In this document: positions 15,719 to 21,292 of the stretch, one piece after another | Layout of the letters: every line of letters begins with the position of its first letter | Position numbering within the stretch: the first letter of the stretch is position 1 | Made by a program: the position numbers and the translations under genes | Assembly (NCBI RefSeq): GCF_018873765.1 | Contig: NC_057922.1 | Coordinates: 8,445,563 to 8,509,562, forward strand | DNA: 64,000 nucleotides | From: Telopea speciosissima | Lineage: Eukaryota > Streptophyta > Magnoliopsida > Proteales > Proteaceae | Reading direction: 5' to 3' | The notes under the pieces: model-generated | What the model saw: only the letters and a program-made list of their open reading frames with translations | What the model was told of the DNA's origin: nothing | Database searches by the model: none

Positions 15719-18199
15719 CATTTCATAGCATTCATGATCTTTCCCACACACCGCAATCAAATCACTTATCATAGATGCAATTTTTGAATCTGCCAAAAAT
15801 CTGTCTTCAGCAATTTCATTAAGTTGGATTACCGTAAGTATCTCATTGCTTTTTAGTAGTCCTTCAACCATAATATTGTAGGTGACACCATCTGGATGAC
15901 AACCATTTCCTTTCATTTACAAGAAAAAGTCTTGAGCTTCACCCAACAAATGCTCCTTACAAAGGCTATCAATGATTATATTGTATGCTTTAACATCAGG
16001 TTCCAGCTCTCTTACCAATGATAGCATTAAAAAGTTCTATTGCATCTTTTAGTCTTTGCACTCTACAACATCCGTCAAGAAGGATTGATGAAAATTGAAA
16101 TAGCTAGAACAAGTCTATCGCATTCTGCTTCTTCAAATAACTTCATTGCTTCATCAACGTACTTGTCTATGCATAGCTCACTGATCAAAATAGATTAGGT
16201 GCAGAGATCAGGCTTTTGTCCTTAAACCTGCATTTCATTGAAGAGCTTTTGTGCAAACCCAGCTCAGCCCACCTGCACACTCCACCTATAGGAGTGCTGT
16301 AAGTAATATTGTTAGGCATCAATTGCTTGCAACGCATCTCCCTAAAAGGAAATATAGCTTCATCAATCCTCCTACTCTTTCCGAAACCACTAATCAATGC
16401 AGTGTACGTAATAACATCTGGCTCATGGCCTTGGTTCTGCATGTTGGCAAAGACTTCTATGGTCTCAACGATTTGACCTAATACACAGAGTCCAATTACC
16501 AAAGCATCATATGCATAAAGTATTTAGGTTCAATGCCTCTTTCAACCAAAAGATCTAACAGCTCATGAAAGTATATCATCATTTGTTATTTGTAAAAAGA
16601 ATCCACCAACATAGTGAAGGTAAGTACATCATGTGAGATTCCTTAATCCAACAATTCATTCAACATTTTAGTGATTTCTTTCCATGGGCCAGAATTTCCC
16701 ACGCCAAAAACCAAAATACTTAAGGTCACAATATCAGGAGAGATTCCTAGTCCTAATATTTTGTTTAGCAATCTAGTGGCTTCTTCTGATTGGCCAGAAT
16801 TGCATAGGCCATGAATCAAAGAGTTGAAAGTGACAACATCAGGCTTTAGTCCTCTTTGAAGTATCAATTCAAACAACTTGTGTGCTTCAACAGTCCTTCC
16901 GTCTTTGCAAAGACCATCTATCAGAATGTTGAAAGTCATGACATTGGGAGAGACTCCAAGTCCCAACATTTTATTTAGCAATCCAGTAACATCTTCCCAT
17001 TGGCCAGAATTGCATAGGCCATGAATCAAAGAGCTGAAAGTGACAACATCAGGTTTCAGTCCTCTTTGAAACATCAATTCAAACAACTTGTATGCTTCAA
17101 CGGTCCTTCCTTCTTTGCAAAGACTATCTATCAGAATGTTGAAAGTCACGGCATTAGGAGAGAGTCCTAGTCCCAACATTTTATTTAGCAATCCAGTGAC
17201 ATCTTCCCATTGGCCAGAATTGCACAGGCCACAAATCAAAGAGCTGAAAGTTATAACATCAGGTTTTTGTCCTCTTTGAAACATCAATTCAAACAACTTG
17301 TATGCTTCAACAGTCTTTCCATCTTTGCAAAGACCATCTATCAGAATGCTGAAAGTCACGACATTAGGGGAGACTCCTAGTCCGAACATTTTATTTAGCA
17401 ATCCAGTGGCTTCTTCCCATTGGCAAGAATTGGATAGGCCATGAATCAAAGAATTGAAAGTGACAACATTAGGCTTCAGGGCCTCATTTATCATTCCTTC
17501 TTTGCAAAGGCCATCAATGATTGCACTATATATGGTCACATTAGGCTTACATTTACCCTTGAGTTCCATCTCCTTAAGCATTCAAGAGCCTCACAAGTGT
17601 TTCCCGTCTTGCAGAGCCCATTGATTATGGTTTCATACGTGATTTCATTACAAGGGTACCCTTCTTCGAGTATCCTGTAGAACAACTCTTTGGCCTCTGC
17701 AATTTTATCCACCATGCAAAGTCCCTTAAGTAGGGTAGTCAATGTGACAATATTTGGATCAAAACCACGTTTCATGATAACCTCCAAAACAGAGAATCCC
17801 AAATCTGGCCTTTTCAACCCACAAAACAGTTGAGTAAGATGCTTAGCGTAGCGATATCGGTCTGTATTTGCAAGGAATTCATGTGTCTACTCAGAGAAAT
17901 TACAGTAAAATAGTGTTTGTAGGTCGCAAGTGTCCCAAATAGTTGATTGAAGCAAAAAATTTTGGAAAGGGTTGTGAATGAACCAATAGATGGTATCGGC
18001 GGAACGCTTCCTCAACACTGATGGAGTTGCCTGTGCTACTTGACTTGCATCCATCATCATCTTCTGCAGAATTCTTGAATAATTCAATAGTACTCGCTCG
18101 CGGATGTGATTGTGTAACTTTAGAAGAACAAGAAGAAGAAAGATATGAAAGAAGCAGACGTAACGGAAGAGTAGGGCTACGAGAAGACCACCAACCCAT
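15716..18199 (-). pseudogene. Rf-like (RFL) PPR pseudogene
   Basis: A P-class pentatricopeptide repeat protein of the restorer-of-fertility-like type, broken into at least five frames: ATG 18199-17900, 17817-17536, 17581-16643, 16502-16185 and 15916-15716. The N-terminus looks like an organelle targeting peptide (MGWWSSRSPTLPLRLLLSYL). Repeats match the RFL consensus (VVTFNSLIHGLCNSGQWEEA). Codons 17581-16643 contain about three and a half copies of a 70-residue unit made of two PPRs. Near 17480 two PPRs have collapsed (MINEALKPNVVTF). Stops also occur between 16643 and 16503 and between 16184 and 15917. The frame ends exactly where the LTR-like relic begins, so the last residues are lost. 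Intact RFL proteins bind organelle RNA; this copy should not. Confidence 0.88.
16662..17440 (-). repeat. 210-bp tandem repeat (two-PPR unit)
   Basis: The phrase aaacaacttg recurs at 16871, 17081 and 17291, exactly 210 bp apart, and the flanking sequence repeats with it. Each unit encodes one PPR of the LIHGLCNSGQWED type and one of the LIDGLCKDGRTVEA type. The high identity points to recent unequal crossing-over or gene conversion. Confidence 0.9.
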
Positions 18200-18854
18200 T
18201 TGAATTGAATTCGATTTTGTGATTTAATGAGAATCCACAGCTCTCCACATCCCTTCCACTTCGTCTCCTCACTGTGTCCCTACTACTAAACATCTGTTTT
18301 TAACTACAATTAAAGGCTTTCACGAAAGGCGTTCTCCATGTGCAGAGAGAAACTCATTTCTTATCCTTATTATTTGTGGTCAATGGCCAGAGAGATTAGA
18401 TTATGACTTTATGTATTAAAATAAATTTTCTTGTTTTGTTATTTCTCTTCTTTGTATTTCACCTTAAATTTATTTGTTATGAGTTAGTGTTTGTTGTTCG
18501 GTTAAGATTTGCGACGAGTTAGTTGGTTTATGCTATTGGAGCAAAGATCCAAATGTTGGTTTTTACGTTTAGTAATTTTTTTTTTTTTATGAAAAGAAAA
18601 TTTATATTAAGATAAATTATACTGTTACCCCCTGAAGTTTGTATTAAATACAGAGTCATCTCCTATGTTTTTAAATTATACAACCACACCCCTGAGTGGA
18701 TGATATTAAATAATACATTTTAAATATCAATTTTACCTTTTTCTAATATCCTGTTAATACTTAATGGGAAATTTCAACTTTACCCTTTTACCCTTATGTA
18801 CAAAACCCTCTTTCTTCTCCAGAAATTCCACTGTCTTCTCCGGTGATCTGCAAG

Positions 18855-19559
18855 GGAGGAATTTCTGTTACGGGAAGAGGGGACTCAGTCAGAGAGAGCC
18901 TCTGACTGGTCGGGGTTTTTGGCAGACGGCGACACGGCGTACGTTAGTAAGAAATGCAAATCTGGTCGATCTAAGGAAGTTGACCAAAGGGATGACATGG
19001 TCTTCCAAGCTGCAATCCAAAATGCTCGGGTCCCTGCAGAGGATATTTGCAAGATTAGGGCCTGAAATCCCCATGTTAGAGAAAAAATTTAATTTGGGTT
19101 GTAAGGTATTGTCAGGATCAACAAAGAGCAATGATGGGTACATGGTAATGAGCTTTGAGATTTGGGGTTTGGGCATTTCGTAGGTGTCAAAAAGTGCAAG
19201 GACTGTCTCAGATCTGTTGGTGCTGTTGGTTCTGAAAAAAAACCTTTTGACAGGGTACGAGAGATAAATCTGAGGACAATCCGGAAGGTTGGATTTTAGC
19301 ATTTGAGATGGACCTTAGAGATGGGTCTTGAAGAATAGGGATGATGAATCTGGATAAGAGCTGTGTCGCCGTCTGCATTTCTTACCTCACTAAACCAGAA
19401 GAGACAACAAACTTTTTCAATTTTCCCTTTCCTTTTTAGGGCAAATCTTCTTGATCAAATAAAATTTGTGAAATCGCAGAGTACATCAAACCAGCAGACC
19501 CTTCACGTCTCCGTTAGGAATTTCTGCTACGGGAAGAGGGGACTCAGTTAGAGAGAGTC
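18855..19559. repeat. 49-bp direct repeat inside the Pack-MULE
   Basis: Segments at about 18855-18903 and 19511-19559 share aggaatttctg, tacgggaagaggggactcag and agagagag with only about four differences. They bracket the captured mTERF piece, so the captured DNA was rearranged or duplicated inside the element. Confidence 0.8.
18940..19378 (-). pseudogene. mTERF gene fragment captured by Mutator-like element
   Basis: The minus strand encodes part of a plant mitochondrial/plastid transcription termination factor family protein. An ATG at 19378 begins MQTATQLLSRFIIPILQ, a targeting-peptide-like N-terminus. After a frame change the stretch 19220-18945 reads ETVLALFDTYEMPKPQ, KLITMYPSLLFVDP, PKLNFFSNMGISGPNL and DPSILDCSLEDHVIPLVNFL, the typical helix pairs of mTERF repeats. 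Only about two repeats remain; intact proteins have six or more. The similarity ends near 18945, where the sequence turns into non-mTERF DNA. It is a dead gene piece. Confidence 0.8.
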
Positions 19560-19639
19560 TCTGATTCGTTAAAGACGAGAAACTCTGAATTTGAGAGGGC
19601 CGGAGAGTTGTAGACGAGGAAGGAACAAAGGGAGAGGGA

Positions 19640-19800
19640 TGGGAGGGTAGGGTAGGGTGGGGTGGGGTGGGATGGGGTGGTGGTGGTGGTGTTAGGTTGC
19701 AGGGGGTAGGGGCAGGTGGGTTGGGTTGCAGCAGGTGCTGGGACGAGTGGGGTTGCAGAAGAGAAGAAGAAGAAGAAGAAGAAGGAGGAGAAGGAGGGAT
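19640..19800 (+). repeat. G-rich tract with quadruplex potential, then GAA repeat
   Basis: Plus-strand DNA has many GGG runs spaced by one to three bases (gggtagggtaggg, ggggtggggtggg) followed by GGT triplets and a gaagaagaaga microsatellite. It lies in the right half of the Pack-MULE. Confidence 0.75.
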
Positions 19801-20053
19801 GGTGATGGGGTGGGTCCCATTAAGTCTATTTCAAGGGTAAAATTTTACAAAAAAAAATTAAGCAGTTAGAAGTATATTAATCATTTTAAATCATGAATTA
19901 TCAACCGTACCATTTAATGAAAATGATATAACAGAGTAGGGCTGTCTGTACCAACTAACCAAATCTCAGAGGATGTGACTGTATATTTTAGAAACAAAAG
20001 GTCGCTTTATATTTAATACAAGAAATGACAGTGTAATTTTCCCTTTATATTAA

Positions 20054-21292
20054 AAAGAAGATGAATTTACAGTGTCCTTTGAGAACTACAAATATTTACG
20101 ACCTTGGATTACCTGCCGCGGAAGCATACTTAACCAAAAAAATAAGGAGTTATTCTGGGTTAGCAAAATATATATCATCCTGAACAAAAGAGCTACTTTC
20201 AAGAAACATTGGGAGTAAAGTCCACGGCCAAGCATCCTGAGTAGGCTGACTGGCTGAGGGACATATTGTAGTATTCCTTTGTTAAATAATGTTGTAAAGA
20301 TTTGTGTCAATTAGAAAATATAGTCTTTAACCAGCACTGGTTGATAGTGGATGGCACCGATGACGCTTCAGACGATGCACATCCGATGCCAACAAGGCCG
20401 CATCAATGCCAGATAGAGAGTGTAAGACCCAGAATTGTCCCCGACGGATGTCAATTCAAGAAAAGCTCACCACAACCCGGCCTCGTACATGTGTCTGAAA
20501 AACACCCCAGATCAACCCCGCACATGTGGGAAGTGAGAAACTTCTCTTCAAGAAATTCTACCCATGTAATTCTCATTTTTATATATTAACATCTCATTCA
20601 TCTCATCCACTTCCAATGTAGAAGGCAACTTCCAAGAGAGCAAAAAAGCCAAACACTGTGGGAGAGAAAACACCAAAAACAAATTTTGAAATAATCAAGG
20701 AGGTATTTAAAAACTTCCATATAAAATACATTTTCCAACAATTATTTTGGTACCTGTGGAAATGGAACTATTTCTGGATATAGTTTGACATATGTATATG
20801 TTTGGTAAAAATTATGGAAACAATGAAAAGTATCAATGGAATTTCTGAGAATGATAAAATAATACAAATATGCAAACCTAGGAGGCATACAAGAACAACA
20901 ACCGTTTGCTACAACAGTTTATGGAAGTCAATACCTAGTGACATATGCAGTTTTGCATTTGAGACAGGTTAGGTTCAACCTCTACATAAATAATATCGGC
21001 CTTTACAACCATTGGTATATATAGGGTAAGAGATCTTTGAATGATCGCGTGACCCCTGCACCAGCGTGGGGGCCAATAAGAACATGCATAGGCATCAACA
21101 TGGAGGCAATTTTTTATTTCATGGGGGCAGGATGATAATTTCATGTACAAAGTTGCAATTCTTTCACCTGTGGAGATAAGAATTTATATATCTCATCTCA
21201 CTTGGAGAGTAGAATCATATGGACTCGACAATTGTTAACAAAAAAAATATACAATTCATACAAGGAGATGCTTCTGGTTAAACAAGGTAGCT
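20054..21292. other. Intergenic; dispersed-repeat fragment
   Basis: No gene is recognised. A stretch at about 21029-21140 (ggtaagagatct...gcgtgacccctgcaccagcg) belongs to a dispersed family also seen near 6042 and 39880. The region ends where the SNAPC1 duplication begins (21293). Confidence 0.45.

Follow-up and report, generated by a model that had tools for sequence, protein, structure and literature searches.

The unit at positions 18610 to 20043 (1434 bp) of the window, that is, the whole 64,000-nucleotide stretch of Telopea speciosissima DNA analysed here, is in all probability a Pack-MULE, a Mutator-like element of the non-autonomous type, with a stepwise-assembled interior. The Pack-MULE reading, already put forward in an earlier note on this DNA, is supported by the sequence of the ends, the target duplication, the further copies and the captured gene. 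The element combines pieces derived from four or more other genomic places, the mTERF gene fragment being one layer among several.

Ends, insertion site and copies of the element

The left terminal inverted repeat (18611-18696, plus strand, about 86 bp) lies within a left terminal arm extending to about 18849, and the right one (19965-20043, minus strand) within a right arm that begins at about 19821. Pairwise alignment of the outer 200 bases of each end as inverted repeats gave a local score of 81, above every control (maximum of 63 both for 1000 random window pairs and for 500 shuffles), in agreement with the earlier description of a 1.43-kb unit whose inverted ends measure about 85 bp. The 10-bp sequence TTTATATTAA is identical at 18601-18610 and 20044-20053, and an equally good duplicate was obtained in 0.7% of 300 random placements at the same locus with a freedom of 4 bases per end. 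The perfect 10-bp duplication announced by the earlier note is exact over its length, but it is probably made of 9 bp plus one chance base match, because all eight perfect sibling duplications have 9 bp (8/8) and because most sibling tips start with GG. The target site duplications TTTATATTA would then occupy 18601-18609 and 20044-20052, base 18610 being probably the first base of the element and base 20053 matching too. With a 9-bp duplication, the left tip of the element is AGA, and the left tip AGATAAATT then aligns with GGGAAAATT of the right end.

A 29-base end motif was detected with at most 2 mismatches at 499 sites of the 823-Mb genome (242 forward and 257 reverse), and its reversed control at none (0 and 0). 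For the target-duplication test, 18 family copies were considered and two without one end were left out. A perfect duplication of 9-10 bp was present in nine of the 16 copies tested, one of low complexity, and AAAAAAAAG in copy L073 is counted among the nine; the remaining copies had 9 of 10 bases (one), 8-base homopolymers alone (two) or no duplication (four). Among the copies carrying the mTERF fragment, three of seven have perfect and differing duplications; that of L014 matches at 9 of 10 bases, that of L015 is a homopolymer, and L012 and L013 are without a convincing one.

The element is inserted in a dispersed repeat whose left part (18576-18600) and right part (20053-20283) were delimited by a joined-flank search and alignment. 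The query, 600 bases of joined flanks with a single target copy, returned 21 rows, two of them being the locus itself. Ten of the 19 non-self rows (identity 68-86%) reach more than 20 bases beyond the junction in both directions; three others cross it by just 5-9 bases on the right. None of the six aligned junction-crossing rows has an insert, and a single TTATATT target is seen in four of these empty sites (L083, L085, L086 and L087), L082 and L084 being more diverged at the target position. Related empty sites were therefore found, which favours the insertion proposed earlier; given an identity of 68-86%, they are related copies of the target repeat as opposed to the orthologous site. The T-run with which the target repeat starts may be the poly-A end of a retroelement. 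On the left of the element, ORFs matching PPR occur in two frames of the minus strand (16643-17886) and may correspond to a disrupted gene, to a gene with an intron or to an error of the assembly. They start at 17886, about 720 bp from the element, and an ORF with its ATG at 18199 (about 410 bp from the element), for which no Pfam match was obtained, lies between them and the element; an insertion within the PPR promoter was dropped for these reasons.

The Pfam scan of six ORFs of the element gave one match, to mTERF, and no transposase was present among them, as the earlier note had stated. MULE domains are numerous in the genome (at least 150 matches), yet the end-motif and MULE-domain matches listed, together with two long intervals, revealed no element that has these ends and bears a transposase. 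When the listed matches were compared by eye (100 motifs against 150 domains), no end motif lay within 40 kb of a MULE domain, the closest being at about 49 kb. The first interval, L080 (C5:8112040-8118140), extends over 6 kb between perfect end motifs; its one long ORF, of 614 codons, encodes a retrotransposon gag (Retrotrans_gag, E 8.4e-18), and it was rejected as an autonomous partner. A retroelement may here have inserted into a member of the family. The second, L081 (C7:23669400-23677520), with 8 kb between perfect end motifs, was also rejected: nine of its 11 ORFs of at least 110 amino acids were scanned without detection of a transposase, one weakly resembling a B-box (E 0.012, which does not pass the cut-off) and the other eight giving no match. 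The end motifs of this interval could delimit a single large element or have nothing to do with each other.

Captured layers and their proposed order

The minus-strand ORF 18889-19314 matches Pfam mTERF (E 4.8e-12, profile positions 1-79 of 314), which confirms the antisense N-terminal mTERF region noticed earlier. The captured fragment itself covers 18972-19350 on the minus strand (379 bp) and corresponds, in antisense, to codons 17-145 of the parent counted from the first ATG, as measured on the sibling L014. It is bounded by junctions within the element, without continuity with the flanks, and its parent lies on another contig; these results are not compatible with a piece of a larger gene running into the flanking DNA. 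At least seven mTERF carriers were found, 40 of 1073 candidates being scored: this element and copies at C7:60265814, C2:16975713, C3:30957766, C7:17545220, C8:11554213 and C10:3734279. The copy at C7:60265814, on the same contig but 52 Mb away, is 91% identical over nearly the whole length and has its own 9-bp duplication, and the copy at C2:16975713 is 84% identical. Both mTERF junctions are common to all seven carriers, on contigs C2, C3, C7, C8 and C10; together with the differing duplications of three carriers, this shows that the element has moved as one unit since the mTERF capture.

The search for the parental gene highlighted two candidate mTERF genes on C8 (53.90 and 57.62 Mb), which are 99.2% identical to each other over 3370 bp and both open over more than 400 codons, stop to stop. 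The single one scanned matched Pfam mTERF in two stretches (E 4.7e-36), and the mTERF pieces of the carriers are 91-95% identical to these genes, one of which is the parent. The two C8 loci are so alike that they may have arisen by duplication not long ago or represent one locus assembled twice. Genes of the mTERF family are numerous in this genome (182 Pfam matches), with big clusters at C5:65.5-65.8 Mb, C8:4.9-5.2 Mb and C8:57.6-57.7 Mb.

The mTERF fragment interrupts a sequence matching a locus at C7:2.91 Mb (L076), the left remainder of which occupies 18910-18964 and the right remainder 19386-19492, both on the plus strand. No element arms were found over about 11 kb of this C7 locus (L076, L078 and L079; L076 entered both arm comparisons, L078 and L079 one of the two). 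Between the left remainder and the mTERF fragment is a filler of 7 nt (18965-18971). The right filler (19351-19385), delimited by inverted repeats and comparison with siblings, starts with about 9-11 nt of unassigned sequence and continues with two stretches of the element itself, 18922-18938 and 18947-18958, copied in inverted orientation; its final bases overlap native sequence. The comparison with L065, L066 and L073, all without mTERF, indicates that in the seven carriers mTERF replaces 111-124 bp of the C7 piece. The left side of the mTERF junction is most complete in L014, and L012, L013 and L015 are without most of the sequence to the left of it.

To the right of the C7 piece, 24 nt (19489-19512, minus strand) are what is left of an LRR gene fragment from an older capture, which is longer in the family members L088 and L089. 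The LRR fragment of L088 matches Pfam LRR_1 (E 1.4e-15), the ORF of L014 had no Pfam match, and C4:3261694-3262073 (85% identity) is a candidate parent. Besides LRR, L089 contains at 389-1237 (C562:5188-6036) a fragment of FAE1/CUT1 type (Pfam E 2.4e-26) and likewise combines pieces of several genes. L065 and L066 lack about 55 bp of the LRR fragment and have, at this place, about 290-300 bp matching C7:2.91 Mb. Microhomology is seen at both junctions of the C7 piece, with ATAAG at the left one and AACC at the right one; the latter is retained in the mTERF carriers and mutated in L065 and L066.

The next fragment (19516-19585, plus strand) matches the armless locus C5:14358305-14358472 with 95.7% identity over 70 bp; no arm match was found within the 2.3 kb examined of this C5:14.36 Mb locus. 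A C5-matching fragment of at most 170 bp is present to the right of the LRR remnant in 7/7 carriers and is shorter in three. It includes the right copy (19516-19564) of a 49-bp direct repeat, the left copy of which lies at 18857-18905 on the plus strand (93.9% identity). The repeat is as real as the earlier note had it, but it does not bracket the capture: the stretch is doubled on the left only in this element (L009), L010 and L011, and the four other mTERF carriers have older-type sequence at this place. The left copy is for this reason a separate change, probably later than the mTERF capture, and its reading as a scar of that capture was rejected. It may have been copied from the right copy or, a second time, from the C5 locus.

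These data suggest the following succession, the order of events being itself conjectural. The older-type members of the family would have carried the LRR gene fragment, of which about 55 bp would then have been replaced by about 290-300 bp from the C7 locus; subsequently, 111-124 bp of the C7 piece would have given way to antisense mTERF sequence from C8 (379 bp), joined by filler on either side. The C5-locus fragment would also have been gained and, in one sub-lineage, its 49-bp stretch doubled. Junction deletions, microhomology and partly self-copied inverted filler are what break repair with template switching would leave behind, and the C7 and mTERF replacements probably result from repair of internal breaks by copying other loci in this way; the same process is proposed with less confidence for the C5 fragment and the 49-bp doubling. 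That the C7 and C5 pieces entered the element from these two loci is suggested by the absent arms and differing flanks of the loci, although an old element that has lost its arms could look alike. Copies are present at seven sites, this one within a dispersed repeat, and their movement would have relied on a transposase supplied in trans.

Decay of the terminal arms and probable exchange between members

The captured body shows far fewer C-to-T changes than the arms of the same copies. When the ancestral base was taken from family copies without mTERF and C-to-T or G-to-A changes were counted in the carriers, the C-to-T frequency was 127/547 (0.232; seven carriers, 15 other copies) in the left arm and 95/416 (0.228; five carriers, 21 other copies) in the right arm, as against 7/245 (0.029; seven carriers, 10 other copies) in the C7 piece. 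In the left arm, right arm and C7 piece, respectively, the reverse change reached 0.013, 0.012 and 0.026, and transversions 0.0093, 0.0111 and 0.0090. For the mTERF piece, polarised by the parent gene, the C-to-T (0.054), reverse (0.032) and transversion (0.022) frequencies also include the changes on the branch of the parent. The contrast was also observed in the carriers with the majority base over all copies (130/601 and 95/417 in the arms; 20/1075 in mTERF and 9/341 in the neighbouring piece) and with the majority of the seven carriers alone (164/889 in the six outer 60-base bins; 33/1558 in nine body bins). In all these counts the changes are not independent, as related copies inherit them. 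The zones contrasted were 18610-18849 and 19870-20043 for the arms and 18972-19492 for the captured body, the high C-to-T zone having its left limit near 18790-18850 and its right onset near 19870; the bins from 18850 to 18970, a mixture of non-homologous sequence, were left out.

Changes private to one of the seven carriers were about three times denser in the arms for C-to-T (50/164 vs 20/196, p 1.9e-6), and private T-to-C changes were denser there too (17/270 vs 6/291, p 0.017). This test reveals more transitions in the arms but does not by itself give their direction, because the majority of seven copies poorly marks the ancestral base at much-hit sites; the direction is given by the non-carrier polarisation. 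By context, the arm rates were 0.18-0.19 for CG, 0.14-0.16 for CHG and 0.12-0.13 for CHH (22 left-arm and 26 right-arm copies), and those of the mTERF and C7 pieces 0.06-0.07, 0.03-0.05 and 0.013-0.020. Such a weak context dependence in the arms is unlike ordinary CG-biased decay. The likeliest origin of the arm decay would be small-RNA-directed methylation of the ends, the terminal arms being methylated and decayed by C-to-T and the captured body spared. More tentatively, and as a possibility that we would not call probable, the terminal 180-240 bp of the whole family may undergo a near context-independent C-to-T process stopping before the captured body, either because small-RNA-directed methylation of the ends is dense enough to make every context decay to a similar extent, or through another cytosine-deaminating process at the ends. 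Mobility would thereby be eroded and the gene pieces preserved, the interior acting as a repeated break-repair site that collects fragments. The contrast between arms and body constitutes a sequence-only record of a differing host treatment of the two parts.

The arms diverge more than the interiors, as swapped interiors could also produce, and the mosaic might come mainly from recombination or conversion between members with different interiors and not from repeated repair-copying of host loci. Blocks common to members with different interiors (19 matches to 19377-19515) are compatible with such an origin. So is L092 (C3:65788900-65790900), which contains LRR and C5-type sequence in two places and no C7 or mTERF match. 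This copy speaks against one simple capture order, lowering the odds of stepwise capture and raising those of exchange: C5-type sequence either entered the family on several occasions or passed from one member to another, and because L092 has it without the C7 and mTERF pieces, the sequences do not fix the order of the C5 capture. The transversion density polarised by non-carriers is, however, 0.009-0.011 in the arms vs 0.009 in the C7 piece; the arms are therefore not simply older. Moreover, the C7 and C5 pieces are contained in armless loci with differing flanks, the mTERF source is an open gene and the inverted self-copied filler is unexpected from simple exchange. Exchange as the main origin of the mosaic is unlikely in our opinion, and some exchange between family members, in addition to stepwise capture, is likely.

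Role of the mTERF piece and relation to known elements

Selection on the mTERF piece was gauged solely through indels and codon positions. As a frameshifting indel relative to the parent is present in 7/7 carriers, a protein function of the piece was rejected, and the element as a whole would have none. The mTERF differences of the seven carriers fall 47, 50 and 76 times in first, second and third codon positions, and this third-position excess may reflect just constraint on the parent. A regulatory role, in which antisense or small RNA from the copies would control the parental mTERF genes, could be imagined with seven copies at 91-95% identity to the parents, and the part of PMC13317346 available to us describes captured sequences of maize as siRNA reservoirs able to silence donor genes; the 5-9% divergence nevertheless limits guide matching, and such a role is rather improbable. 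That a chance pair of similar ends flanks a non-mobile mTERF pseudogene, of which some are expected in a family of 182 matches, is hardly tenable and already refuted by the near-full-length C7 copy with its own duplication, the C2 copy and the related empty sites.

The stepwise-assembled element is of a known kind, and its assembly record is unusually well preserved. Pack-MULEs of rice were reportedly described by Jiang in 2004. The earlier note held that they are less often described outside grasses, which does not agree with the 220 Pack-MULEs of tomato and 46 of Arabidopsis counted in the accessible part of PMC3310237, nor with the statement on non-grass Pack-MULEs in the introduction of PMC8903248. 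A literature search for Pack-MULE together with mTERF found no paper in the collection searched.

In the accessible part of PMC4858842, the ends and interiors of rice MULEs have different methylation histories, and the ends and captured interior of the present element apparently resemble the genic MULEs of Oryza in this respect. The basis differs, being here mutational decay read from sequence rather than a methylation measurement; the main text of that paper gave no match for 'deamination', 'C to T' or 'transition'. Animal Pack-TIRs, according to the available part of PMC8277862, are formed by gap filling and share with this element an internal break filled from another locus, a microhomology of few bases and short junction insertions. 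Unlike them, the present case concerns a plant and MULE-type ends, with several rounds per lineage and a filler that is partly an inverted self-copy.

The closest likeness is to the Pack-MULEs of rice, tomato and Arabidopsis as presented in the accessible part of PMC3310237: non-autonomous, with long terminal inverted repeats and a 9-11 bp duplication, a host gene fragment inside, several copies and a size near 1-1.5 kb. The repeat of about 85 bp is shorter than the 100-bp minimum of the tomato library and exceeds the threshold of 50 bp applied in other parts of the paper. Unlike those elements, as far as the same source goes, this family still has apparent donor loci alongside members that do not contain the later pieces. 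The way in which Pack-MULEs acquire host sequence is still argued, and with members from before and after several replacements, plus apparent donor loci, the repair-copying model can be checked junction by junction.
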